Shown here one piece after another: positions 9,809 to 43,936 of a stretch of DNA of 64,000 nt (position 1 is its first letter; every line of letters starts with the position of its first letter). The notes under the pieces are model-generated. The model had not been told where the DNA came from, did no database searches, and saw only the letters and a program-made list of their open reading frames with translations. The stretch covers positions 4,030,001 to 4,094,000 of the forward strand of contig NZ_CP129613.1 in assembly GCF_030486405.1 (NCBI RefSeq). The letters run 5' to 3'. Both the position numbers and the translations under genes were made by a program. The DNA comes from Mycolicibacterium sp. HK-90 (GTDB lineage Bacteria > Actinomycetota > Actinomycetes > Mycobacteriales > Mycobacteriaceae).

Positions 9809-10791
9809 CCCAAAGGGCTGTGAGCACGTTTCGTACGAACCATCCGATCGTGGAGTTCCTGGCCCGGCGGCTGCTGTACTCGGCGGTGGTGCTGATCGGG
9901 GTGCTGGTGGTGGTGTTCGCCCTGGTTCACCTGGTGCCGGGCGACCCGGTCCGGATCGCCTTGGGCACCCGCTACACCCCGCAGGCCTACGACGCGCTGC
10001 GCACGGCCAGCGGGATGGACCGGCCTATCGTCGAGCAGTTCTTCTCCTATCTCGGGTCGGCGCTGACCGGCGATCTCGGGGTGAGTTTCCGCAACGGCGA
10101 CCCGGTCACCGTCACGCTGCTCGACCGGCTGCCGGCGACGTTGTCTCTCGGTGTGGTGGGCATTCTCATCGCGCTGGTGATCGCGCTGCCCGCCGGGATC
10201 TTCGCGGCGCTGCGCGAGGGGCGGGTCAGCGATGCGATCGTGCGGGTTGCCAGCCAGTTCGGGGTATCGGTGCCCGATTTCTGGTTGGGCATCCTGCTGA
10301 TCGGGCTGTTCGCCTCGACGCTCGGCTGGTTGCCGACATCCGGATACCGCCCGCTGCTGACGGATCCGGGTGGCTGGCTGCGCCACATCGTCCTGCCCGG
10401 TCTCACCGTCGGGTTGGTGGCCGCCGCGATCATGACCCGCTATGTGCGCTCGGCCGTGCTGGAGGTCGCCGCCATGGGCTATGTCCGCACCGCACGGTCG
10501 AAGGGGTTGGCACCACCGGTGGTGACCTTCCGCCACATCGTGCGTAACGCGCTGCTGCCGGTGCTGACCATCACCGGGATTCAGCTGGCCACCATCCTGG
10601 GCGGAGTCATCGTGGTGGAGGTGGTGTTCGCCTGGCCAGGCCTCGGCCGGTTGGTGTTCAATTCCGTTGCCGCACGCGACTATCCGGTGATCCAAGGCGC
10701 CGTGCTACTGATCGCGGTGCTGTTCTTGCTGATCAACCTGCTGGTGGATGTGCTGTACGCGATCGTCGACCCGAGGATCCGGCTGTCATGA
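9805..10791 (+). CDS. DppB-type ABC transporter permease
   Basis: 328 aa. Seen: N-terminal membrane helix followed by the OppB/DppB pattern (HLVPGDPVRIALG), several further membrane segments, the EAA-type cytoplasmic loop (YVRTARSKGL) that contacts the ATPase, and the C-terminal DVLYAIVDPRIRLS signature. GTG start overlaps the upstream stop by 4 bp, and its own stop overlaps the next ATG by 4 bp. Forms the membrane channel with the DppC-type partner. Confidence 0.95.
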   Translation: MTQRAVSTFRTNHPIVEFLARRLLYSAVVLIGVLVVVFALVHLVPGDPVRIALGTRYTPQAYDALRTASGMDRPIVEQFFSYLGSALTGDLGVSFRNGDPVTVTLLDRLPATLSLGVVGILIALVIALPAGIFAALREGRVSDAIVRVASQFGVSVPDFWLGILLIGLFASTLGWLPTSGYRPLLTDPGGWLRHIVLPGLTVGLVAAAIMTRYVRSAVLEVAAMGYVRTARSKGLAPPVVTFRHIVRNALLPVLTITGIQLATILGGVIVVEVVFAWPGLGRLVFNSVAARDYPVIQGAVLLIAVLFLLINLLVDVLYAIVDPRIRLS

Positions 10792-11669
10792 CCACCACCC
10801 AGGATTCCCGGGTCGCATCGTGGCGGCTGTTGTTGTCCAACCCGGTGACGGCGGTCAGCGCCGCGGTGCTGCTGGCGGTGCTGGTCGTCGCGGTGGCCGC
10901 GGCATGGATCGCCCCGTACGGCGTCAACGACATCGACGTGCCCAGCGCGCTGCAGGGTCCGAGCACTGCGCACTGGTTCGGCACCGATGAGCTTGGCCGC
11001 GACGTGTTCTCGCGCGTGCTGGTGGCCATCGCGGCCTCGCTCCGGGTCGCGGTGGTCTCGGTGGCGCTGGCCGCGGTGGTCGGGGTGCTGATCGGCGTGC
11101 TGGCCGGCTACCGGGGCGGCTGGATCGACAACGTGGTGATGCGCGTCGTCGACGTGATGTTCGCCTTCCCGGTGCTTCTGCTGGCGCTGGCGATCGTCGC
11201 GGTGCTCGGCCCCGGCATCACCACCACGATGCTGGCCATCGGCATCGTCTACATCCCGATCTTCGCGCGGGTGGCCCGGGCATCGGCAATGGGTGTGCGG
11301 GTGGAGCCGTTCGTCGCGGTGTCGCGGAGCATGGGAACCGGCGACGGCTACATCCTGGTCCGGCACATCCTGCCGAACATCACTGGGCCCTTGGTGGTTC
11401 AGCTGTCGCTGTCGCTGGCGTTCGCGATCCTGGCCGAGGCCGCGTTGTCGTTCCTGGGGTTGGGGATCCAGCCACCGGAACCGTCGCTGGGCCGGATGAT
11501 CTTCGACGCCCAGGGCTTCGTCACCCTGGCCTGGTGGATGGCGGTGTTCCCGGGCGCGGCGATCTTCGTGATGGTGTTGGCGTTCAACCTGTTCGGTGAC
11601 GGGCTGCGCGATGTGCTCGACCCCAAGCAGCGGACCTCGATCGAGGCCAGAAGGGCGGGACGGCGATGA
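10788..11669 (+). CDS. DppC-type ABC transporter permease
   Basis: 293 aa. Seen: OppC N-terminal helix, the HWFGTDELGRDVFSRVL motif, five or more membrane segments, and the EAA loop (VSRSMGTGDGYILVRHILPN). ATGA overlaps at both ends. Heterodimer partner of the DppB-type subunit. Confidence 0.95.
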   Translation: MTTTQDSRVASWRLLLSNPVTAVSAAVLLAVLVVAVAAAWIAPYGVNDIDVPSALQGPSTAHWFGTDELGRDVFSRVLVAIAASLRVAVVSVALAAVVGVLIGVLAGYRGGWIDNVVMRVVDVMFAFPVLLLALAIVAVLGPGITTTMLAIGIVYIPIFARVARASAMGVRVEPFVAVSRSMGTGDGYILVRHILPNITGPLVVQLSLSLAFAILAEAALSFLGLGIQPPEPSLGRMIFDAQGFVTLAWWMAVFPGAAIFVMVLAFNLFGDGLRDVLDPKQRTSIEARRAGRR

Positions 11670-13231
11670 CCTCACCGGTGCTGAAAGTCGGAGATCTGCG
11701 GGTGCGGATCGGCCGCCGCGAGATCGTGCGCGGTGTGTCGTTCGAGGTGCACCGCGAGCAGACGGTCGGCATCGTCGGTGAGTCCGGTTCGGGCAAGTCG
11801 ATGACCGTGCTGGCTGCCACCGGCCTGCTCGATGCGCCGGGCGCGGTGGTCACCGGTACCAGCACCCTGGCCGGTGATTCCCAGCTGATCGGGGCCTCGG
11901 CCCGGGCACTGCGCGCGGTGCACGGCAGTCGGATCGGATTCGTGTTCCAGGATCCGGGAACGTCGCTGAATCCACTGCTCACCCTGGAACGGCAGATCAC
12001 CGAAACCCTTGAGGCACACCGCAAGATGACCCGGCGGCAGGCCCGCGGACGCGCGGGCGAGCTGCTCGAGGCGGTCGGGCTCTCCCCCGACCGGCTCGAC
12101 GCGTATCCGCATCAGCTGTCCGGCGGGCAGCGCCAGCGGGTGATGATCGCCATCGCCCTGGCCTGCGACCCCGAACTGCTCATCGCCGACGAACCGACGA
12201 CGGCTCTGGATGTCACCACCCAGGCGCAGATCATCGACCTCATCGGCGATCTGCAACGGGATTTCGGCACCGCGGTGGTGTGGATCAGTCACGACCTCGG
12301 GGTGATCGGTCAGGTGGCCGACGAGGTGACGGTGCTTCGCGAGGGCGAGGTTGTCGAGCAGGCACCGATCCTTGAGGTCTTCGACCATCCGCAGCACCCG
12401 TATACCCGCGAACTGCTGGCAGCGCGCCCACTGGTGGACGGACCGGGGCCCGATCCCGCTCCCGCCGAAGCACCGGTTCTGTTGCGGGTCAACGGACTCG
12501 ACGTGCGATACGGCGCGGTCCGCGCGGTCGAGGACGTCTCGTTCGAACTCCGCCGGGCGACAACGCTCGGGATCGTCGGGGAATCCGGCTCGGGCAAGTC
12601 GACCGTGGCGGCCGCCCTCACCGGACTCGCCGAGCCGTCCTCGGGTACGGCGACGCTGGCGTCCGACGATGTGTTCGGCGGCGGGCGCGACCTGCGCCGG
12701 CGGATCAGCCTGGTGTTCCAGGACCCGTTCTCCTCACTGAACCCACGGGCCCGGGTCGGTGCCGCGATCGGCGAGCCGCTGCGGGTGCACCGGCTGTCCG
12801 TCGGCCGCCGGGCCCGAGCCGAGCGGGTGGCGCGATTACTCGAGCTCGTGGGTCTGCCAGTAGATTTCGCATCGCGCTATCCGCACGAGCTGTCCGGCGG
12901 GCAACGGCAGCGGGTCAGTATCGCCCGCGCGCTGGCCACCGAGCCCGACGTGCTGATCCTGGATGAGTCGACGGCGTCGCTGGACGTGTCGGTGCAGGCG
13001 CGGGTGCTGGACCTGTTGTCGGAGCTGCAGCGCGAGCTGGGCCTGACCTACCTGTTCATCGCGCACGACCTGGCCGTGGTGCACCGGATGTGCCACGACG
13101 TACTGGTGATGCGGGCCGGCGAGGTCGTCGAGTACGGCCCGGCCGCCGAGTTGTTCGCCGCGCCCCAACACGAGTACACCCGGACACTGCTGGCCGCGGT
13201 TCCGCCGGCGGCGCCGCGTGAGAAGGTGTGA
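11666..13231 (+). CDS. Double ABC ATPase (DppD-DppF fusion)
   Basis: 521 aa, two complete nucleotide-binding domains in one chain. Seen: two Walker A sites (GESGSGKS, about residues 38 and 308), two signature motifs (LSGGQRQRV), two Walker B segments (LLIADEP and VLILDES), each with a downstream H-loop. Known: fused OppD/F ATPases are common in actinobacterial Dpp/Opp/Nik systems and power uptake. ATGA overlap with the permease. Completes the transporter. Confidence 0.95.
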
Positions 13232-32465: not shown

Positions 32466-35312
32466 ATGGCCGATTCCAGAGCCCCCCACACGGGGGTTGC
32501 TCGATGGATCCGTCGATTCGCCATTCCGGTGATTGTCGGCTGGATCGCTCTCCTCGCATATCTGAGCATCACCGTTCCTCCACTCGAGGTGGTCGGGCAG
32601 ATGCGATCGGTGTCGATGAGCCCCAGCGACGCACCGTCGGTGATCGCGATGAAGCGGGTCGGCGCGGTGTTCGACGAGTTCCATTCGGACAGCTCGGCGA
32701 TGATCGTGTTGGAGGCCGAGGACAAGCTCGACGATGCGGCGCACCGGTTCTACAACGACATGGTCGACCGGCTGGAGGCCGACAAGGCGCATGTCGAGCA
32801 CGTCCAGGACTTCTGGGGTGACCCGCTGACCGAAGCCGGGGCCCAGAGCAACGACGGTAAAGCCACCTACGTGCAGGTGTACCTGGCCGGCAACATGGGT
32901 GAGGCGCTGGCCAACGAATCGGTGGAGGCCGTCCAGAAGCTCATCTCCGAACTGTCGCCGCCGCCCGGGCTCAAGGTCTACGTCACCGGCCCCACTGCGC
33001 TCGCCGCCGATCAGCAGATCTCCGGTGACCGCAGCGTCAAGATCATCGAGGCCGTCACCTTCGCGGTCATCATCACGATGCTGCTGCTGGTCTACCGGTC
33101 GATCATCACGGTGATCCTGGTGCTGCTGATGGTGGTGATCGAGCTCTCGGCGGCCCGCGCTGTGGTGGCATTCCTGGGCTATCACGAGTTGATCGGCCTT
33201 TCGACCTTCGCCACGCAGCTTCTGGTCACCCTCGCCATCGCCGCGGCCACCGACTACGCGATCTTCCTGATCGGCCGATATCAGGAAGCCCGGGGCGTCG
33301 GGGAGGACCGAGAGCAGGCGTACTACACGATGTTCCATGGCACCGCGCACGTGGTGCTCGGTTCCGGTATGACCATCGCCGGCGCGACGTTGTGTCTGCA
33401 TTTCACCCGGCTCCCCTATTTCCAGACTCTCGGTATTCCGATGGCCGTGGGCATGACGGTCACGGTGCTGGCGGCCCTGACTTTGGGGCCGGCGGTGATC
33501 ACCGTGGCCAGTCGATTCGGCAAGGTGCTCGAACCCAAGCGCGCCATGCGGATTCGCTTCTGGCGACGCCTGGGGGCCTTCGTGGTCCGCTGGCCGGGTC
33601 CGGTGCTGCTCGGCACCATCCTGTTGTCGCTGGTCGGTCTGCTCACGCTGCCGGGCTACCGGACCAATTACAACGATCGCAACTACCTGCCCACCGATCT
33701 GCCGGCGCAGGAAGGGTTCGCCGCAGCCGACCGGCATTTTTCGGCGGCGAAGATGAACCCCGAGTTGCTGCTGATCGAAACCGACCACGACGTTCGCAAT
33801 TCGGCGGACTTCCTGGTGATCGACCGGATCGCCAAGCGGGTCTTCGAGGTGCAGGGGGTCGGCAGTGTGCAGGCCATCACCCGCCCGCAGGGTGAGCCGC
33901 TGGAGTTCAGCACCATTCCCGCCCAGATGAGCATGGGCGGGGTCATGCAGACCATGAACCGCAAGTACCTCACCGACCGCGCCGACGACATGCTGCTGCA
34001 GGCCGATGAGATGCAGAAGACCATCAACACGATGGATCAGATGATCGTGCTGATGAACGAGATGAGCTCGATCACCCACAACATGGTCGGCCAGATGGAT
34101 GTGATGGTCGAGGACGTCAAGGAACTCCGCGACCACATCTCCGATTTCGACGACTTCCTGCGCCCCTTACGCAACTACCTGTACTGGGAGCCGCACTGCT
34201 ACAACATCCCGGTCTGTCAGTCGATGCGCTCGGTGTTCGACGGCCTCGACGGTGTCGACGCCATGACCGAGACCATGGAGCAGCTGATGCCCGACATGCA
34301 TCGCCTCGACGAACTGATGCCCCAGATGGCCGCGATGATGCAGCCGCAGATCGCGACCATGCGGAACATGAAGACGATGATGCTGACCATGCATCAGACC
34401 CAGAAGGGTCTGCAGGATCAGATGGCCGAGATGCAGGACAACCAGACCGCCATGGGCACGGCGTTCAACGACTCCAAGAACGACGACACCTTCTACCTTC
34501 CGCCGGAAACCTTCAACAACGCCGATTTCAAGCGCGGCATGAAGAGCTTCATCTCGCCGGACGGAAAAGCGGTGCGTTTCATCATCTCTCACGAGGGTGA
34601 CCCGCTGACGCCGGAAGGCATCGGCATCATCGACGGCATCAAGCTGGCCGCCAAAGAGGCCATGAAGGGCACGCCCTGGCAGGGTTCCAAGATCTACATG
34701 GGAGGCACCGCCTCGGCCTTCAAGGACATGCAGGAAGGCAACAATTACGACCTGATCATCGCCGGGATCTCGGCACTGTGCCTGATTTTCATCATCATGC
34801 TGATCATCACGCGAAGCCTGGTGGCCGCGGCGGTGATCGTCGGCACCGTGCTGGTCTCGCTGGGAACGTCGTTCGGTCTGTCGGTCCTGGTGTGGCAGCA
34901 CCTGCTCGGGATCGAACTGCACTTCATGGTGATGGCCATGGCGGTGATCGTGCTGTTGGCCGTCGGTGCGGATTACAACCTGCTGTTGGTGGCGCGACTC
35001 AAAGAGGAACTGCCCGCCGGTATCAACACCGGCATCATCCGGGCCATGGGCGGCAGCGGGTCGGTGGTGACCGCGGCCGGGCTGGTGTTCGCCTTCACCA
35101 TGATGTCGATGGTGGTCAGCGAGATGATCGTGGTGGCCCAGGTCGGTTCGACGATCGGGCTGGGCCTGCTGTTCGACACCCTGGTGATCCGATCCTTCAT
35201 GACGCCGTCGATCGCGGCGTTGATGGGCCCGTGGTTCTGGTGGCCACAGCGGGTGCGTCAGCGCCCGGCACGCGGTGTGGTGGCGCGGGCGATGGAGCGG
35301 TCGCGCACCTGA
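32466..35312 (+). CDS. MmpL-family RND transporter
   Basis: 948 aa, MmpL4/5-type size. Seen: 12 membrane helices, two conserved Asp-Tyr pairs in the proton path ([12 protein letters not shown] and [12 protein letters not shown]), and a Met- and Gln-rich coiled-coil segment (about residues 495-660, with repeats such as [13 protein letters not shown] and [14 protein letters not shown]), typical of MmpL4/5 periplasmic coils. Known: exports lipids or siderophores, usually with an MmpS partner; none is adjacent here. A broken TetR gene follows. Inference: substrate may be envelope lipid or siderophore; not decidable. Confidence 0.92.
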
Positions 35313-35316
35313 GCGT

Positions 35317-35744
35317 TCAGGTCCGCTGCTCCGTCTGGATGTAGGCCGCGAGGACGTCCAGATCAGGTTTCCGATCCCGGCCCCCTTCGGCGCGGACAGC
35401 CCTTCGGCCAGATGGAGAACGCCCGCCAGACGATGTCGACGATCAGTGCGGTACGGGCCGGGTCGACATTTCGTCCTCGAAGGTGGGCAGGTCGGCCAGC
35501 GTTTCGGCCAGGTCACCGAATCCCTTGTCCACCACGGCCATCAGCAGTCCGTTGAGGTCGCCGAAGTGGTACTGGACCACGCCCCATGTCACCCCGGCCC
35601 GCCCGGTATGTTCCGGACACTGGGCGGGGTGAACCCTTCGTCCAGGATGCAACGCACCGTTTCGGCGATGACCGCGTCACGGGTGCGTTCGGCGCGGGCC
35701 TGACTTCCGGTGGCCTGCCGTCGTGGGCGCGGTGTGATCCTCAT
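35317..35744 (-). pseudogene. Frameshifted TetR-family regulator remnant
   Basis: Reading the minus strand from ATG 35744, a normal TetR start is visible (RAERTRDAVIAETVRCILDE), which hits a TGA at 35589-35591. In another frame the HTH continues (AGVTWGVVQYHFGDLNGLLM, DKGFGDLAETLADLP) to a stop at 35443. Further on, shifted again, are LIVDIVWRAFS and a last helix LDVLAAYIQTEQRT ending at 35317. At least two frameshifts break the gene. It probably once regulated the upstream MmpL. Confidence 0.78.
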
Positions 35745-35780: not shown

Positions 35781-35799
35781 TTAGGTTAGGCTAAGCTGC
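35781..35799 (+). promoter_or_regulatory. IdeR iron box
   Basis: TTAGGTTAGGCTAAGCTGC matches the mycobacterial IdeR/DtxR consensus TTAGGTTAGGCTAACCTAA at 16 of 19 positions, including the first 14 without a mismatch. It sits upstream of the GltB-like gene and after the pseudogene. Known: iron-loaded IdeR binding here represses the downstream promoter; repression is lifted in low iron. No other convincing iron box was seen in the window. Confidence 0.82.
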
Positions 35800-35896
35800 C
35801 CGATCGTGGCCGGCCGCTGACCACGCGTCCCGCATCGAGGCCAGCGGGTCGCTCAACGACGAGGTACCCCGCGAGCAACACACCATCACACGCCGG

Positions 35897-38800
35897 GTGC
35901 GCGCATCCGGCGCCTGGGTGAGGAGAGCGCGCCTGAACGGCCTGTACAACCCGGACCACGAAAAGAGCAGCTGCGGCGTCGGCTTCCTGACCCGAAAGGA
36001 CGGCGTCCAGACCCACGAGGTCATTCGCAAGCTCCATGAGGCCCTGTGCGCGGTGCCGCACCGCGGCGGAATGTCCTCGGAGGGCGTCGGCGACGGCGCG
36101 GGAGTCAACTTGGACCTGTCCCTGCGCTTCTTCGGCGAACTGACCGGCCGAGATGATCTGCAACTCGGACAGTTCGGGGTCGGCAACTTCTTTCTGCCGA
36201 CAGACCCTGAACAGCACGCTGCCGCCGAGTCGGTGATCGAACAGGCCCTTTTGGCGCAGGGCTTCACAATTCTGCTCAAACGCGATGTACCCGTCGACAA
36301 TTCAGCGATCCGGCCGGCGGCGGTCAAGTATCAGCTGCCCATTCGGCAATGGGTGTTCCTGACCTGTGCCGACGCAATCGCCGATCGCGACATCCACGAC
36401 GCGTTGATGGCCATCGAAGCCATCGCCTACACCGAACTGCCGGGACTGTATCCACTCTCGCTGAGCGCACGCACCCAGGTCCTCAAGGGCCGGCTCAACT
36501 CGAACGAGGTGGTGCCGTACTTCCGCGATCTGTCGGACCCGCGCATGGAAGTGCACTCGATGTTCTTCCATACCCGGTTCTCGACCAACACCGCGCCGAA
36601 CGCGACCATGGCCCAACCATTTCGGTTCATGGCGCACAACGGTGAACTCAACACCGACAAGAAGAACCGGCTCTCCGACAATGCGATCGCCCGCGCCCGC
36701 AACCGGGCGATCGTGCGGCCGGTCGGCCAGTCCGACAGTTGCCGCCTCGACCAGACCCTGCAGAACCGCGTGCTGGAGGACGGTCTGGACCTGGTCACCG
36801 CCGTGGTCGCGATGATGCCGCCGGCGTGGGAGAACGACACCACGCTGTCGCCGCCGGTACGGGCCATGCTGGAGTACTTCAGCCTGTACGAAGAGAAGAA
36901 CGACGGGCCCGCCGCACTGATCTTCGGCGACGGCACGATCGTCGGTGCGCGGCTGGACCGGCTGGGGCTGCGGCCGCTGCGCACCGTCGAGACCACCGAA
37001 TACCTCGGAGTGATGTCTGAGGCCGGACAGGTCTACTTCCCGCCGGAGCAGGTGGTCCGGCGCGGCCGCATCGAGGCCGGGGGCATGCTCTACTACGACC
37101 ACGCCGAACGCCGGTCCTACACCACCACCGAAGCACTGGAAAAGCTTGCAGCTCAGGCTGATTACCCGGCCATGCTCGACGCTGCCCGGATCAACCTCGG
37201 CGACGTTCCCGCCGTCGCACCCGAGAATCAACTCTCACCCGCGCGCTACCACGGTGACCTCGACCGGCATCAGCGATACGTCGCGTACTCGCTGAACCAG
37301 GAGAGCTTCAAGTTCCTGATGGACCCGATGCTGGCGACCGGCCAGGAGAAGATCTCGGCCATGGGATACGGCGCCGCGATCAACGCGCTGTCCAACCACG
37401 AGGGTGGGATCGCCCGCTACTTCTCCCAGCGGTTCGCGCAGGTGACCAACCCGCCTCTGGACAGCATCCGCGAAGCCGACGGCATGACGCTGCGGGTCGC
37501 CCTTGGCGCCAAGCCCAACAGCGGGGCCACCCCCGCCCCCCAGATCGTGGTCCCGTCACCGATTCTCACCCACCGTGACATGCTCAAGATCCGGGATCAG
37601 CAGCACAGCCCCGTGCGGCGGTTCGGCATGCGGTACCGGATCGAACTCGGCGATGCCACGGCCAACGCCACGGCATTGGTGCGCGCCATCGACGCACTGT
37701 GCGACGACGTGGAGGCGTTCGCGCGGGAGTCCGGTGGCATCGCGGTCATCTCTGATCGACACGTGGAACGCGAGCTGGCGGCGATGCCGCTCACCATCGT
37801 CATCTCGGCGATCAATCAGCGGCTGATCGAAGAGGGCCTGCGCCTGCGGGTTTCGGTGATCGCCGAGAGCGGTCAGTTGTCCTCATCGCACCACATCGCG
37901 ACGGTGCTCGGCTTCGGGGCCTCGGCGGTGTACCCGCTGGCCGTGCAGATGCGTGCCGAAGAGAAGTTCGGCGACGGGGCCGACGAGGCGTTCAAGCGGT
38001 TCGCCAAGGCCGCGGAGAAATCGCTCATGAAGACCATGGGCCGGGTCGGGTTGTGTACGGCCGAAAGCTACATCGGTGGTGAGTTCTTCGAGCCCAGCTA
38101 CCTCGACACCGGAGATCCGGTACTGCACCGCTACTTTCCGAACGTCGTCTCCCCCGTCGCCGGGGTGGGCTTCGGCACCCTGGCCGACACGGTCGCCGAC
38201 TGGCACGCCCGGGCACTGGCGGTCACCGGCGAGAAGGACATTCCACTGCTCGGCCTGTTCAAGGAGCGGGCCGAGGGCGCCGGACATTCATACGGTACGA
38301 CGGCAGTGCGCGGATTCGTCGACATGACCGAGGAGTCCATCTCATTCGGCGACGAGGCCCGGCCTGAGAACCCCGGCATGGCGGATCCGGTGTTCCTGCG
38401 GGGGTTGCCGCTGCACCAACTCGAAGGCGCGTTCGGTCTCGACGACGAGGCCTACCGCAACAACAGCTTCGACGAGCTGACCCCGCGCGCCATCAACAGC
38501 TTCGACATCACCCCCGGGTACCGAAGTTTCGTGTTCGCGATGAACACCGAGCGCACCCGGCGCCCGGCGGCGCTGCGTGATGTTCTGGCTTTTCCGGCCG
38601 ACGTCAGCTTCCTGCACACCGCCGCCGAATTCCGGACCGAACTGGGTCAGTTCCCCAGGCACGGCAACAACAGCTTCAAGGTGCGCGGCCTGAGCTGCAC
38701 GCAGGTGGGTGACGAGTTCACGCTGCGGCTGCATCACGGCCCCGGACGCCTCGGTGCGCTGGCCGATTCGCTACGGGAGCGGTTCAGCGCCGACATCCTC

Positions 38801-41377
38801 GACTCCGAGGTCATCGGCGATCGACTATGGCTGCGAGCCGCCGGTGAAGCCCTGCACTACCTGGAAAACGTGCACACCGCACCCAGCTCGATCCCGCTGG
38901 CCTCGGTACAGCCGGCCAGCGAGATCGCGTCCACCCTGGCCTCGGGAGCAATGAGTCACGGCGCCCTGGTCGCACCGGCGCACGAGGCGGTGGCACACGG
39001 CACCAACATGGTCGGCGGCCTGTCCAACTGCGGCGAGGGAGGTGAGCATCTCACCCGCTACGGCACGATCCGCGGCTCGCGCATCAAGCAGTTCGCCTCC
39101 GGGCGGTTCGGAGTGTGGGCAGGCTATCTCGCCGACCCGATGCTGCGGGAGCTGGAGATCAAGATCGGGCAAGGCGCCAAACCCGGTGAAGGCGGCCAAC
39201 TCCCGGCACCCAAGGTCACCGTGCAGATCGCCGCCGCACGTGGAGGCACCCCCGGGGTCGAATTGGTGTCCCCGCCTCCCCACCACGACACGTACTCGAT
39301 CGAGGACCTCGCCCAGCTGATCCACGACTGCAAGGCCGCTCGCGTGCGGGTCATCGTGAAGCTGGTCTCCTCCGAGGGCATCGGCACCATCGCGGTCGGG
39401 GTCGCCAAGGCCGGCGCCGACGTGATCAACGTCGCGGGCAACACCGGTGGCACCGGCGCGGCAGCCGTCACCAGCCTCAAGTACGCCGGGCGGTCCGCCG
39501 AGATCGGTGTTGCCGAGGTACATCAAGCCCTGTGCGCCAACGGTATCCGGCAGAAGGTGGTGCTGCGCTGCTCGGGTGCGCATCAAACCGCCGGCGATGT
39601 GGTGAAGTCAGCACTGCTCGGCGCCGACAGTTTCGAGTTCGGCACCACCGCGCTGATGATGCTCAAGTGCGTGATGGCCAAGAACTGCAACATCAAGTGC
39701 CCGGCCGGACTGACCACGAATGCCGAGGTGTTCGAGGGTGATCCGCGGGCATTGGCCCAGTACCTGTTGAACATCTCGCACGAGGTCCGCGAGATCCTGG
39801 CCACCCTGGGCCTGTCCTCGCTGCGCGCCGCGCGCGGGCGCAGCGATCTGCTGCATCTGCTGGATCATCCGTCGAGCATCGGCCGGCTGGACCTGCGCGC
39901 CATGCTCGCCGTCGCCGACGAGTTCGTCGTCGACGAACCGATCTACATGGAGAAGGACTACACCATCGACGACGGGTTCCTGGCCCAGCTCGATCTCGAC
40001 GGCGTGGCCATGACGCCGGTGTCGCTGACCAATCAGAACAAGAGCGTGGGCGGCCAGTTGGCGATCGACATCGAGCGGATGCTCAACCACGAGAATGCTT
40101 CCGGCACCGCTGTCACGGCCGATGACCGGGGGCGACGTTATCTGCTGCCCGACAGCGTGATGATCGCCACGACCGGATCCGCGGGCCAGAGCTACGGCGT
40201 GTTCTGCAATGACGGTATGTCCCTGGTGCACTCGGGAACCTGCAACGACGGGGTCGGCAAGAGCGCCTGCGGCGGCACGATCGTGGTTCGCTCCCCCGGC
40301 GGCGGATCGGCCGCGCCAGGGGGCAATGTGCTGATCGGCAACTTCGCCTTGTTCGGCGCTTCGGGCGGCCGCCTGTTCGTCGAGGGTGAGGCCGGTGACC
40401 GTTTCGCGGTCCGCAACTCCGGCGCCACCGCCGTCGTCGAAGGCGCCGGAGAATTCCTGTGCGAGTACATGACCAACGGCGCGGTGCTCAACATCGGCGG
40501 ATTCGGCAAGGGTGTCGCCAACGGGATGAGCGGCGGCTTCCTGTACCAGTACGACCCGACCGGTGCCCTCGGATCGAAGGTCAGCACCGACTCGGCCGTC
40601 GTCGCCCCGATCACCGGCGCCCCGTTCCACGAGGTGGCCGCGCGCACGATGCTGGAATGGCACGTCACCGCCACCGGCTCCGCCAAAGGTTCGGCACTGC
40701 TGGATGATTGGGACACCACGCGCCACCATCTGGTGTACGTGATGCCGCGGGCCCTGCTGCAGTATCAGGATTCCGATGCGATCCTGGCCGCCAAGACCCG
40801 CAAGGAACTGCTCGACGAACTCGCCACCTCGCTGGCGGCGTTTCAGGTGCACAAGTTCAAGCGGTCCTACCGTGATCGACACGTGGTACTCGGTGGATCG
40901 GTTCCCGGCTACGGTGATACCGATACCGAGGAGATGTTCGTCCTGCTCAACACCTACACGGTGCTGAACATGGCGCAGCAGCTGGTTCTTTCGCGGATGC
41001 CAGACGTGGACGATGTGGCCGACCCCCGCGTCGGCAAGGCGGTACGCAATCTCGTCTTGACCGAGGACTTCTTCCTGATCCAGAAGCTGCAGAAGCACGC
41101 CCGTGAGGCAATCGAGGTGTTCAGCGACGAAGATCTCGCGGTGTTCATCGCCCACAAGCGGATCACCGACTACAAGAACGCGCTGACGCAACGCAATGTG
41201 CTGTCGACCGACAGCCTGGGGACCTACGGCTGGATCCTGTTCCAGGACGCCAAGAACACCGAGAAGATCGGTCGGCTGCCGTCGTTCGAAGAGCTGTTCG
41301 CCCATCAGGTGATTCCGGTGATCTCCGGACCCCTCGCCGCCGGTGCGGCCCGAGCCGAACAGGTGAAGAGCGTATGA
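35897..41377 (+). CDS. Oversized glutamate synthase large-subunit-like protein under an iron box
   Basis: 1,826 aa from GTG 35897; GltB is usually about 1,500. A better ribosome site (AGGAG) precedes CTG 35933, so the true start may lie 12 codons later. Seen: class II glutaminase domain (Cys 26 in SSCGVGF, RFSTNT, NGELN, GDGAG), central domain about 470-760, FMN domain about 1005-1350, GXGXG helix about 1360-1600. The [3Fe-4S] motif is C1258-x5-C1264-x3-C1268, one residue shorter than the usual x5/x4. Extra segments: about 100 residues at 898-997 and about 205 at the C-terminus (from 1622). Known: GltB makes two glutamates from glutamine and 2-oxoglutarate using electrons from GltD. Here a diflavin reductase follows instead (ATGA overlap). 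A glutamate synthase or another amidotransferase. Confidence 0.88.
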   Translation: MRASGAWVRRARLNGLYNPDHEKSSCGVGFLTRKDGVQTHEVIRKLHEALCAVPHRGGMSSEGVGDGAGVNLDLSLRFFGELTGRDDLQLGQFGVGNFFLPTDPEQHAAAESVIEQALLAQGFTILLKRDVPVDNSAIRPAAVKYQLPIRQWVFLTCADAIADRDIHDALMAIEAIAYTELPGLYPLSLSARTQVLKGRLNSNEVVPYFRDLSDPRMEVHSMFFHTRFSTNTAPNATMAQPFRFMAHNGELNTDKKNRLSDNAIARARNRAIVRPVGQSDSCRLDQTLQNRVLEDGLDLVTAVVAMMPPAWENDTTLSPPVRAMLEYFSLYEEKNDGPAALIFGDGTIVGARLDRLGLRPLRTVETTEYLGVMSEAGQVYFPPEQVVRRGRIEAGGMLYYDHAERRSYTTTEALEKLAAQADYPAMLDAARINLGDVPAVAPENQLSPARYHGDLDRHQRYVAYSLNQESFKFLMDPMLATGQEKISAMGYGAAINALSNHEGGIARYFSQRFAQVTNPPLDSIREADGMTLRVALGAKPNSGATPAPQIVVPSPILTHRDMLKIRDQQHSPVRRFGMRYRIELGDATANATALVRAIDALCDDVEAFARESGGIAVISDRHVERELAAMPLTIVISAINQRLIEEGLRLRVSVIAESGQLSSSHHIATVLGFGASAVYPLAVQMRAEEKFGDGADEAFKRFAKAAEKSLMKTMGRVGLCTAESYIGGEFFEPSYLDTGDPVLHRYFPNVVSPVAGVGFGTLADTVADWHARALAVTGEKDIPLLGLFKERAEGAGHSYGTTAVRGFVDMTEESISFGDEARPENPGMADPVFLRGLPLHQLEGAFGLDDEAYRNNSFDELTPRAINSFDITPGYRSFVFAMNTERTRRPAALRDVLAFPADVSFLHTAAEFRTELGQFPRHGNNSFKVRGLSCTQVGDEFTLRLHHGPGRLGALADSLRERFSADILDSEVIGDRLWLRAAGEALHYLENVHTAPSSIPLASVQPASEIASTLASGAMSHGALVAPAHEAVAHGTNMVGGLSNCGEGGEHLTRYGTIRGSRIKQFASGRFGVWAGYLADPMLRELEIKIGQGAKPGEGGQLPAPKVTVQIAAARGGTPGVELVSPPPHHDTYSIEDLAQLIHDCKAARVRVIVKLVSSEGIGTIAVGVAKAGADVINVAGNTGGTGAAAVTSLKYAGRSAEIGVAEVHQALCANGIRQKVVLRCSGAHQTAGDVVKSALLGADSFEFGTTALMMLKCVMAKNCNIKCPAGLTTNAEVFEGDPRALAQYLLNISHEVREILATLGLSSLRAARGRSDLLHLLDHPSSIGRLDLRAMLAVADEFVVDEPIYMEKDYTIDDGFLAQLDLDGVAMTPVSLTNQNKSVGGQLAIDIERMLNHENASGTAVTADDRGRRYLLPDSVMIATTGSAGQSYGVFCNDGMSLVHSGTCNDGVGKSACGGTIVVRSPGGGSAAPGGNVLIGNFALFGASGGRLFVEGEAGDRFAVRNSGATAVVEGAGEFLCEYMTNGAVLNIGGFGKGVANGMSGGFLYQYDPTGALGSKVSTDSAVVAPITGAPFHEVAARTMLEWHVTATGSAKGSALLDDWDTTRHHLVYVMPRALLQYQDSDAILAAKTRKELLDELATSLAAFQVHKFKRSYRDRHVVLGGSVPGYGDTDTEEMFVLLNTYTVLNMAQQLVLSRMPDVDDVADPRVGKAVRNLVLTEDFFLIQKLQKHAREAIEVFSDEDLAVFIAHKRITDYKNALTQRNVLSTDSLGTYGWILFQDAKNTEKIGRLPSFEELFAHQVIPVISGPLAAGAARAEQVKSV

Positions 41378-43107
41378 AAATCGCGTACATCCCCGAAGAC
41401 GCTCCGTTCAACGAGGATCAGCGGGCCTGGATCTCGGGATTTCTCGCCGGGTTGCATTCCCGACTGGCGATGAGCTCCGCGGCCCCACCCCCGTCCACCG
41501 AAGCGACGGGTCCGCGCCCGGCACTGCGGGTCCTGTACGGCACCCAGACCGGTAATGCCGAAGGCGTGGCGGGTGACACCGCCGCCGCGGCCAAGGCCCA
41601 GGGGTTCGATGTGACCGTGAGCGGTCTGGACGAGATCACCCTCGAGGAGTTCGCGGGGTTGAGCTACGTCCTCATCGTGACGTCCACCTATGGCGAAGGC
41701 GAGATGCCCGACAACGCCGAATTGTTCTGGGAGGCACTGTCCTCGACGCAGGCACCGCGCCTGGAGGCGATGTCCTATGGTGTGCTGGCGCTCGGCGACA
41801 CCAGCTACGACGGGTTCTGCCAGGCAGGCAAGCTGCTGGACACCCGACTGGAACAGCTCGGCGCCAGCCGGGTCGTCGGCCGCGCCGACTGCGACGTCGA
41901 TTACGAGGCGCAGGCCGCCGAGTGGGTGCACGGCGCGGTGGGCTCTCTGGTCACGCTCGCGGGGGCGAGCGGATCACCGGGCACTCCCCCGCCGAGCACC
42001 GTGGCCCGTTCGGGCTGGACCCGGAAGAACCCGTTCTCCGCAGCGCTGCCGGTCAACCGGCTGTTGTCCGGCGCCGGTTCGGGCAAGGAGATCCGGCATT
42101 TCGAGTTCGCGCTCGCCGACAGCGGTATCGCCTATGAGGCCGGAGATGCGCTGGCAGTGGTACCGGAGAACGATCCGGCGCTCGTCGAAGCGATCGCGGC
42201 GCATTTCCGGGTCTCCACCGACACCCTTGTCGACGGCGAGCCGCTGGGTGATCTACTCGGCCATCGCTACGAGATCAGCACGCCGTCAAAGGATCTGCTG
42301 AGCGAGGTGGAGAGCCGCGCCGAGCACGAGGAGTTCTCACACGCCCTGCGCGGCGGCGTCAAGGAAGTACTGGAACGCTGGCTGTACGGCAAGGATGTGC
42401 TGGACGTCCTACGCATCGGCGGCGATGTACTCAGCCTGGAGGAGTTCGTCGGCCTGCTCAAGCCTCTGCAGCACCGGGCCTACTCCATCTCGTCGAGTTC
42501 GCTGGCCCATCCCGACAGCATCCACCTCACGGTGGCGAGCGTGCGCTACCGCAACACCGGGCGCGACCGCGGAGGAGTGTGTTCGACCTTCCTCGCCGAC
42601 CGCTGCGGTACCGCGCGAATCTTCCTGCAGCCAAACAAGTCGTTCCGGGTACCCGCCGACGATGTACCGATGATCATGGTCGGCCCCGGCACCGGCATCG
42701 CCCCGTTCCGGGCCTTCCTGCAGGAGCGCGAACAGCGCGGTGCCGATGGCAGAAATTGGTTGTTCTTCGGCGACCAGCACCGCGAGCATGACTTCATCTA
42801 CGCCGACGAGATCGCCGCCTGGCAGGATTCCGGTCTGCTCAACCGATTGGACCTGGCCTTCTCCCGCGACCAGACCGACAAGGTGTATGTGCAGACCCGG
42901 ATGCGGGAGAACGGCGCAGAACTCTTCGCCTGGCTACAGGACGGCGGCCACTTCTATGTGTGCGGCGACGCGTCCCGCATGGCCAAGGACGTCGACAGCG
43001 CCCTGCACGACATCGTCGGTGAGCACGGCGGCCTCCGCATAGATGAGGCGACCGAGTACGTCAACACCCTCAAACGGGAGAAACGGTACGTGCGCGATGT
43101 GTACTGA
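41374..43107 (+). CDS. CysJ-type diflavin NADPH reductase
   Basis: 577 aa. Seen: N-terminal segment of about 50 residues (APFNEDQRAWISGFLAGLHS, as in CysJ-type proteins), flavodoxin domain about 50-195 (YGTQTGNAE, TSTYGEGEMPDNA, LGDTSYDGFC), FAD domain with RAYSISSSS and GGVCSTFLA, NADPH domain with GPGTGIAPFRAFLQERE, and C-terminal YVRDVY. Known: CysJ, P450 reductase and relatives move electrons from NADPH through FAD and FMN to a partner. No iron-sulfur site is present. It overlaps the GltB-like gene by 4 bp and the HemS-like gene by 11 bp. No sulfite reductase CysI is nearby, so the partner is most likely the GltB-like or HemS-like protein. Confidence 0.92.
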   Translation: MKIAYIPEDAPFNEDQRAWISGFLAGLHSRLAMSSAAPPPSTEATGPRPALRVLYGTQTGNAEGVAGDTAAAAKAQGFDVTVSGLDEITLEEFAGLSYVLIVTSTYGEGEMPDNAELFWEALSSTQAPRLEAMSYGVLALGDTSYDGFCQAGKLLDTRLEQLGASRVVGRADCDVDYEAQAAEWVHGAVGSLVTLAGASGSPGTPPPSTVARSGWTRKNPFSAALPVNRLLSGAGSGKEIRHFEFALADSGIAYEAGDALAVVPENDPALVEAIAAHFRVSTDTLVDGEPLGDLLGHRYEISTPSKDLLSEVESRAEHEEFSHALRGGVKEVLERWLYGKDVLDVLRIGGDVLSLEEFVGLLKPLQHRAYSISSSSLAHPDSIHLTVASVRYRNTGRDRGGVCSTFLADRCGTARIFLQPNKSFRVPADDVPMIMVGPGTGIAPFRAFLQEREQRGADGRNWLFFGDQHREHDFIYADEIAAWQDSGLLNRLDLAFSRDQTDKVYVQTRMRENGAELFAWLQDGGHFYVCGDASRMAKDVDSALHDIVGEHGGLRIDEATEYVNTLKREKRYVRDVY

Positions 43108-43936
43108 GGGGCGACGCTGCCCGAACTGCCCCGCCAAGCGGATTGTGGCCGGGCCCAAGATCATTGCCCAGGCTCTCCCATTCCTCGGCACCGTGGTGTC
43201 CGTCACCGCGAACGATGCCGCACTGCTCAGCCATACCGGCGCGTACCTGGCACCGGCCCTTCCGGGCGAGGCGCTGCGCTGCGGCGACGAGTACATCGGG
43301 CTCCGGCTGCACCCGGCGTTGATCCGCGACACATTCCTCACGTCGCGGGCCCTGACGTTAGCCGGCGAAACCGGAACTCACCGCGCGTATTTCACGCCTC
43401 TGTCGGACAGCCTTTCCATTCAGGCACTCGAAGCGGCGCCTGCCGGAGACACCGAACCGGTTGAGCCCATCGACTGGTCGGCAGTGAACTGGAGCGACAC
43501 CGACCAGCTGACCCACCTGGATGCGCTCACTCCCGAGCGTTACCAGGTGTTGCCCTTCACCGGCGCGCGCCAGATCGACCCACGCGTCGTACCTCATCTG
43601 CTCGCCCACATCGTCGACATGGACCTCCCCTTCACCGTCGGCGTTCCCGCCGGCGGATGCGTGCAGTTCCACCGCGGCCGGGCCGCGATGTTCGACGGAT
43701 CCGGCCCGCATTTCTCGGTGGTGTTCGGCGCCGCCCGATACGTGATGGATCCGGTGTTCGTGGCGGAATGCTGGGTGACGCAGGCGCCGAGCGCCGTCGG
43801 GCTGACGTCCGCCCTGGAGCTATATGACCACAGCAACCGCTGCATCACCGTCATCACCCAGACCGGTCCGCTGTGCGAACATCTGCACGAGGCCTGGGAA
43901 GCGATCGCGGCGTCGCTGCCCGAGTGCGAGCGATAG
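43097..43936 (+). CDS. HemS/ChuS-type heme-handling protein
   Basis: 279 aa (HemS is about 345). Seen: two HemS repeats: the first at about 25-110 (LPFLGTVVSVTANDAALLSHTG), the second at about 130-270 (DTDQLTHLDAL, VPAGGCVQFHRG, ECWVTQAPSAVGLTSALELYD). The position of the HemS axial His in the TDxHQFF motif reads D here (SDTDQLT), so heme ligation may differ. N-terminal MCTEGRRCPNC has three Cys (2, 8, 11) not usual in HemS. Known: HemS/ChuS bind and can degrade heme, taking electrons from reductases. ATG 43097 overlaps the reductase end by 11 bp. Confidence 0.78.
   Translation: MCTEGRRCPNCPAKRIVAGPKIIAQALPFLGTVVSVTANDAALLSHTGAYLAPALPGEALRCGDEYIGLRLHPALIRDTFLTSRALTLAGETGTHRAYFTPLSDSLSIQALEAAPAGDTEPVEPIDWSAVNWSDTDQLTHLDALTPERYQVLPFTGARQIDPRVVPHLLAHIVDMDLPFTVGVPAGGCVQFHRGRAAMFDGSGPHFSVVFGAARYVMDPVFVAECWVTQAPSAVGLTSALELYDHSNRCITVITQTGPLCEHLHEAWEAIAASLPECER

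Follow-up and report, generated by a model that had tools for sequence, protein, structure and literature searches.

A divergent glutamate synthase large subunit linked to a diflavin reductase in a mycobacterial iron-box operon: evidence for a predicted replacement of GltD

Which protein delivers electrons to a GltB-type glutamate synthase that is encoded next to a diflavin reductase rather than next to GltD? Of the electron routes to glutamate synthase, an enzyme central to nitrogen metabolism, two are commonly taught, one through GltD and one through ferredoxin; for the ferredoxin-dependent enzyme, ferredoxin can be replaced by flavodoxin. The question is raised by a locus of Mycolicibacterium sp. 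HK-90 that lies in a stretch of 64,000 nucleotides (the window; positions 4030001-4094000 of a single-contig 6.49-Mb genome), where a gene for a divergent glutamate synthase large subunit, here called gltB2, is followed by genes for a diflavin reductase (DFR) and for a HemS-like protein, with overlaps of 4 bp and then 11 bp. A first-pass annotation of the window had described an IdeR box (16/19) in front of three genes joined by these overlaps, a description that is confirmed by the coordinates and by Pfam (Table 1), and had offered two readings: either an iron-free reductase replaces GltD under low iron, or the reductase feeds the HemS-like protein for heme cleavage. Our analysis makes it likely that GltB2 and DFR together constitute an NADPH-dependent glutamate synthase in which the diflavin reductase replaces GltD, and which in Actinobacteria would serve as an IdeR-controlled stand-in under low iron.

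Linkage of gltB2 to a diflavin reductase

Gene linkage was counted in a scan of genome contigs with GltB2 in which the best 80 of 590 confirmed candidates were used, and all 80-locus counts given below rest on these; they come from Actinobacteria and from alpha-, beta- and gammaproteobacteria, and the closest gltB2 relatives among the matches listed are mostly from mycobacteria and Nocardia. A DFR gene is found directly 3' of gltB2 in all 80 loci and likewise in all three genomes of a held-out set, which comprises the other GltB2 genomes (E 1e-250 or better) among 200 Mycobacteriales genomes drawn separately; these three are not among the 80, none of which is closer to them than 74% nucleotide identity. 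Loss of the gene order in relatives had been named in the first-pass annotation as an observation that would refute its proposal: the order of gltB2 and DFR proved to be unbroken, whilst the third gene is missing in most loci. The distances between GltB2 sequences and between DFR sequences are correlated (r = 0.88 for 33 sequences, 0/2000 permutations), although shared ancestry alone would give the same. No report of a GltB paired with a diflavin reductase was found in the open-licence papers searched.

DFR exhibits the Pfam domains Flavodoxin_1, FAD_binding_1 and NAD_binding_1, and of the motifs followed through 33 sequences, GPGTG[IV]AP and CG[DS]A are present in all 33, the FAD pattern in 31 and the FMN-loop pattern in 25. 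Over its whole length it shares the FMN-FAD-NADPH architecture of CysJ, the flavoprotein of NADPH sulfite reductase (PDB 6efv, 9c91), but differs from CysJ in its linkage to gltB2 and in remaining below the TIGR01931 CysJ equivalog cut-off (588.4 of 668.15 bits). Two further diflavin reductases were seen in the studied genome: one of 513 aa with 53% identity to DFR (2368954-2370507), and one at 3832918-3834621 that makes up the C-terminal end of an open reading frame (ORF) of 1348 aa, which by eye resembles an assimilatory nitrate reductase. In one relative a second diflavin reductase-like gene stands after the three-gene operon (10616-11767 of the locus).

GltB2 contains the Pfam domains GATase_2, Glu_syn_central, Glu_synthase and GXGXG in this order, all far above their gathering scores, and its PDB sequence matches at E 0.001 are glutamate synthases only. 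In a tree it falls into a separate clade with full support; its identity to the canonical paralogues of the same genome is about 36-37%, and its score of 1027.6 bits lies under the NCBIfam PRK11750 equivalog cut-off (1047 bits). With the GltBD enzymes (E. coli and Azospirillum, PDB 1ea0, 6s6s; Bacillus, 7mfm) it has in common the large-subunit domains and their order, the N-terminal Cys amidotransferase, the FMN barrel, the three cluster cysteines and the GXGXG domain, and in Erwiniaceae also the same flanking genes; unlike these enzymes, which have an adjoining GltD, it has DFR, a C-x5-C-x3-C cluster motif, ~170 more residues at the C-terminus and, in most cases, an insertion of ~90 residues. 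The ferredoxin-dependent glutamate synthase (Synechocystis, PDB 1llw, 1ofd) is likewise a GltB-type enzyme without GltD; in contrast to it, the gltB2 operon encodes an NADPH diflavin reductase, and GltB2 scores somewhat lower against it than against the NADPH types. GltB2 is homologous to GltB and probably works like it, yet it misses two criteria of the GltBD type, namely the GltD partner and the cluster spacing.

The amidotransferase motifs HTRFSTNT and HNGELN are conserved in all 81 GltB2 sequences, as is QGAKPGEGGQLP. Both canonical paralogues of the studied genome (2/2) exhibit the cluster spacing C-x5-C-x4-C, which GltB2 fails to keep. A loop of the Glu_synthase domain (~39567-39595) has CSGA in place of the DG[G/Q/K] of ordinary GltB, with the S and the A invariant in 45 aligned GltB2 sequences and SGAHQ present in 52/81. 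The insertion of ~93 aa is absent from two more divergent relatives. Pfam (E up to 10) gave no match to either the insertion or the C-terminal extension; in PDB profile searches the insertion gave one weak match, to a designed protein (E 0.19), and the extension none up to E 5. Structure searches with a model of residues 780-1826 returned glutamate synthases at the top, a result in which the C-terminal extension was barely probed, so that the extension may still have a known fold. This helical extension is a candidate reductase-docking domain.

The features of the operon are collected in Table 1. The start codon of gltB2 is uncertain and may lie a few codons downstream, since similarity to most relatives starts at about residue 12-15. 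Upstream of the operon, a gene for an MMPL-family transporter of 948 aa (32466-35312, + strand) stops ~470 bp before the iron box, and a divergent stretch at ~35520-35743 (- strand), which by eye resembles the start of a TetR-type regulator, seems to be interrupted, its translated frame containing stops.

Table 1. Positions in the window of the operon and of its features
Feature	Position	Strand	Remarks
IdeR/DtxR-type iron box TTAGGTTAGGCTAAGCTGC	35781-35799	+	16/19 to consensus
gltB2, divergent glutamate synthase large subunit	35897..41377	+	1826 aa from GTG; Pfam, PDB sequence matches, own clade
Codon of predicted N-terminal nucleophile Cys26 (SSCGVGF)	35972..35974	+	CGVG[F/L] in 79/81; other two rows gapped there
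Insertion of ~93 aa, residues 905-997	38609..38887	+	alternating strands and helices in model; in most members
[3Fe-4S] ligand motif, shortened C-x5-C-x3-C	39668..39700	+	81/81 GltB2
C-terminal extension, residues 1621-1826 (~200 residues)	40757..41374	+	all-helical in model
DFR, CysJ-type NADPH-FAD-FMN diflavin reductase, 577 aa	41374..43107	+	proposed GltD replacement; Pfam, NCBIfam
HemS/ChuX-like protein, 279 aa, accessory	43097..43936	+	ATG start; PF05171 42.9 bits, cut-off 24

Genomes in which GltB2 stands without GltD

GltB and GltD were surveyed in 50 genomes, corresponding to 50 of the 80 loci with near-duplicates dropped, and the proportions obtained are hence not frequencies. Ordinary GltB and GltD occur beside GltB2 in 40 of these genomes (E at most 8.7e-91), whilst the remaining ten yielded no full-length GltB match other than GltB2 and no clear GltD (completeness is not stated for these ten). 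The ten comprise Pantoea agglomerans, P. ananatis, Erwinia, Mixta, Winslowiella and a record labelled Enterobacter ludwigii, together with two SAR92 genomes, one of Porticoccaceae and one of Tepidamorphaceae. When an E. coli GltB query was used on the last four, GltB2 only was obtained, in addition to two short GltB-like pieces in Tepidamorphaceae. Distant GltD-family matches are present in two of the ten (28% identity, 2.9e-38; 34%, 7.6e-60; open frames of 598 and 651 aa). A match to the glutamate dehydrogenase (GDH) family is clear in the five Erwiniaceae and in the Enterobacter-labelled genome, and weak only in the other four, where large NAD-GDHs may escape. A separate partner for GltB2, the discovery of which would have told against the pairing according to the first-pass annotation, was not found in the ten genomes without a clear GltD. 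The gltB2-linked DFR of these genomes has 57-60% identity to that of the studied genome; a second full-length diflavin reductase, present in six of the ten and split in one more, has 38-42%.

The position of the genes points in the same direction. In four Erwiniaceae loci, gltB2-DFR lies between npr-mtgA-arcB and sspB-sspA-rpsI-rplM-zapE, which are the flanks of gltBD in E. coli K-12; there, gltBD is separated from them by yhcC at one end and by a longer stretch at the other. Clustering of the enterobacterial loci recovered the arcB-side families in 17/17 and the sspB-side families in 15/17. In case of SAR92/Porticoccaceae, the pair is located between aroB and hemE in three loci (by Pfam on one locus), an interval that we take to be the ordinary place of gltBD in pseudomonads. 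Since the Pantoea and SAR92 sequences form two distinct, well-supported groups that stand apart in the GltB2 tree, GltBD was probably replaced at least twice.

Genetic data exist for P. ananatis AJ13355: according to PMC12364357, this strain has no close homologue of the E. coli glutamate synthase (GOGAT), its gltB shows 64% identity to gltB of Agrobacterium tumefaciens, and a gltB knockout leads to glutamate auxotrophy (the latter quoted there from a 2012 genome paper). In another strain of P. ananatis, GltB2 is the sole GltB match in the genome and exhibits 67-68% identity to Agrobacterium GltB2; given the published 64%, the gene that was knocked out is very probably gltB2. The terms flavoprotein, small subunit, cysJ and gltD are absent from the main text of PMC12364357, and the reductase is seemingly undiscussed in it. 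Thus, the claim of the first-pass annotation that a diflavin reductase replaces GltD is strongly supported: by the unbroken linkage, by the ten of 50 genomes without another full-length GltB or a clear GltD, by the gltBD flanks and by the auxotrophy of P. ananatis.

Iron boxes upstream of gltB2

The iron box was scored against a 19-bp IdeR consensus. The box is the sole match in the window, and none was found in 100 shuffles. Genome-wide, matches with at most 3 mismatches occur at five places (six matches, one palindromic place being found on both strands), compared to one for a reversed-pattern control. One of the other four places lies between the genes for a Lys/Orn N-monooxygenase and a siderophore-interacting protein, another lies just before a gene for a DUF2470 protein, a domain presumably linked to heme, and at the remaining two there is no iron gene among the ORFs scanned. 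In actinobacterial loci an IdeR-like site (at most 6 mismatches) is present within 350 bp upstream of gltB2 in 16/21 cases, compared to 4/1266 control chunks, and in all three held-out genomes the site closest to the IdeR consensus across the 12-kb stretch (4-5 mismatches) lies just upstream of gltB2. At the level of sequence, these boxes support an iron-sparing role in Actinobacteria.

The published RirA motif, TGA-N9-TCA (as given in PMC8822346), is found upstream of gltB2 in 12/17 Rhizobiaceae loci, which are related to each other, compared to 87/1057 control chunks, and in ten of these 12 it occupies one conserved promoter position. Iron boxes hence probably recur in Rhizobiaceae too. A further pattern from Rhizobiaceae, TTGACT-N6-7-TC (16/17 versus 3/1057 control chunks), was left unused, because it had been derived from the same sequences as were counted. 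We also observed that in this family a promoter-like TTGACT...TC block upstream of gltB2 is followed, ~20-30 bp on, by a AGGTCAGCA/CTGAC-like inverted repeat. Fur and ICE/Irr boxes showed no convincing enrichment upstream of gltB2, with scattered single sites only (Fur, 6 mismatches, two loci). Taken by branch, the low-iron part of the first-pass proposal is supported in Actinobacteria by the boxes, is suggested in Rhizobiaceae, and does not extend to Erwiniaceae: iron sparing is a reading for branches that also carry GltBD, whereas the pair in Erwiniaceae looks housekeeping.

Competing explanations and the proposed mechanism

A HemS-family gene follows DFR in 21/80 loci by clustering, with a weak tblastn match suggesting one more, and GltB2, DFR and HemS occur in this order in all three held-out genomes. 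Of seven HemS-like stretches from other loci, five pass PF05171 and two remain below (20.5 and 19.4 of 24; one of them is a 145-aa part). Presence of HemS on the GltB2 tree (16/46) is explained by 6 changes, compared to a shuffled mean of 13.4 (0/2000 as low), and its divergence tracks that of GltB2 (r = 0.90, 22 sequences). HemS is itself followed by a fourth gene in Loktanella and Yoonia, and in Loktanella this gene encodes a siderophore-interacting protein by Pfam. The third gene of the studied operon resembles the HemS/ChuS hemin-degrading factors (PDB 2j0p, 4imh) in its PF05171 domain and through a weak HemS alignment, but these have ~345 aa compared to 279, and the protein is very divergent (best E 0.0021) and linked to a glutamate synthase. 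Its overlap with DFR, its recurrence, the parallel divergence and the siderophore-interacting neighbour could all be taken in favour of the second reading offered in the first-pass annotation, in which DFR would mainly feed the HemS-like protein for heme cleavage under low iron, with GltB2 as partner or user of the product. We nevertheless consider this reading improbable: 59/80 loci, amongst them 17 enterobacterial and 3 SAR92/Porticoccaceae loci, keep GltB2-DFR without an adjoining HemS-family gene (by clustering), and the genetics of P. ananatis point to glutamate. As the main function, electron supply to HemS was rejected on the ground that the pair is kept without HemS in most loci. Judged from the loci, the HemS-like gene is a recurrent, dispensable companion that was repeatedly lost or gained, and its product may be read as handling heme in the same iron regulon, outside the catalytic unit.

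The substrate of the pair could also be questioned. Where GltBD is present, GltB2-DFR could be an amidotransferase-reductase whose acceptor is not 2-oxoglutarate, with glutamate being made only in the Erwiniaceae and SAR92 branches; the retention of ordinary GltB and GltD in 40/50 genomes and the altered DG[G/Q/K] loop would agree with this. The catalytic motifs are, however, identical in the branches that replace GltBD and in those that do not, and GltB2 of the studied genome has 66% identity to that of P. ananatis over the aligned protein, so that a different acceptor appears very unlikely to us. An explanation that we take more seriously, whilst still finding it unlikely, accepts the glutamate synthase and places its gain elsewhere: without labile [4Fe-4S] clusters the enzyme would tolerate oxygen or oxidative stress, and the iron boxes would be a by-product. 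The Erwiniaceae copies, which occupy a housekeeping site and show no visible Fur-like box, fit this explanation, whilst the IdeR-like boxes in 16/21 actinobacterial loci and the TGA-N9-TCA motif in 12/17 Rhizobiaceae loci speak for iron.

Several observations weigh against the preferred reading of GltB2-DFR as a glutamate synthase that spares iron. The electron transfer from DFR to GltB2 is itself a prediction from the genes. DFR scores above the NCBIfam PRK06214 cut-off for sulfite reductase subunit alpha (454.6 versus 432 bits) and may therefore serve another partner, and the S and A in place of the DG[G/Q/K] loop mean that substrate or kinetics could differ. GltB2 keeps the three cluster cysteines, and the enzyme would thus be iron-sparing and not iron-free. 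As regards the boxes, the control chunks for the IdeR count come from the same loci and are mostly coding DNA, in 5/21 actinobacterial loci the sequence upstream of gltB2 lacks a box at up to 6 mismatches, and no Fur-like box stood out upstream of gltB2 in Erwiniaceae/gammaproteobacteria, such that responsiveness to iron is not general. In case of the natural replacement, the SAR92, Porticoccaceae and Tepidamorphaceae genomes are all four metagenome-assembled, and the knockout evidence from P. ananatis is second-hand and may include polarity on DFR. The distribution is also patchy: the pair is found in 4/200 Mycobacteriales genomes including the studied one (E 1e-250), and in the family of P. 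ananatis GltB2 is found in 3 of 99 genomes, with 57 others having a GltB match (nearly all ordinary only, a few just fragments) and 39, mostly genomes <2.5 Mb, having none. One of these three GltB2 genomes carries GltB2 (84% identity to P. ananatis) together with an ordinary GltB and is possibly a replacement intermediate.

If GltB2 and DFR do form a glutamate synthase, NADPH would reduce DFR, the FAD first and then the FMN, and the flavodoxin-like domain of DFR would dock on GltB2, probably at the extra helical domain of its C-terminus and at the altered surface around the [3Fe-4S] cluster. The docked reductase would hand electrons to the cluster of GltB2 and from there to its FMN, whilst the N-terminal Cys amidotransferase site would release ammonia from glutamine, and this ammonia would be channelled to 2-oxoglutarate to give glutamate. 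The GltBD enzyme holds ~11 iron atoms per unit; by taking over from GltD, DFR would dispense with the two [4Fe-4S] clusters of the latter and lower this to ~3. In this mycobacterium and in other Actinobacteria, the operon would be under repression by IdeR as long as iron is abundant, and the pair would stand in for GltBD when iron is low, with the HemS-like gene as a co-inherited companion from the iron regulon. A bolder version would make GltB2-DFR a third class of glutamate synthase, with the diflavin reductase docking on a new C-terminal domain: a horizontally spread iron-sparing module that crosses phyla, has displaced GltBD at least twice and is coupled to heme or iron status through HemS, which may for example take electrons from the same reductase or supply iron for the GltB2 cluster. 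In this full form we regard the proposal as speculative and rather unlikely.

An all-flavin third route of electrons to glutamate synthase would, if true, mean that ammonium assimilation has to be re-annotated across whole lineages: among the genomes searched, those of Pantoea, Erwinia and SAR92 appear to have GltB2-DFR as their sole glutamate synthase, and the DFR of the studied genome scores best as a sulfite reductase subunit. As P. ananatis is used in industrial production, the missing reductase would also be of practical interest. The finding would, if true, also represent a swap that spares iron in central metabolism, much like that of flavodoxin for ferredoxin.

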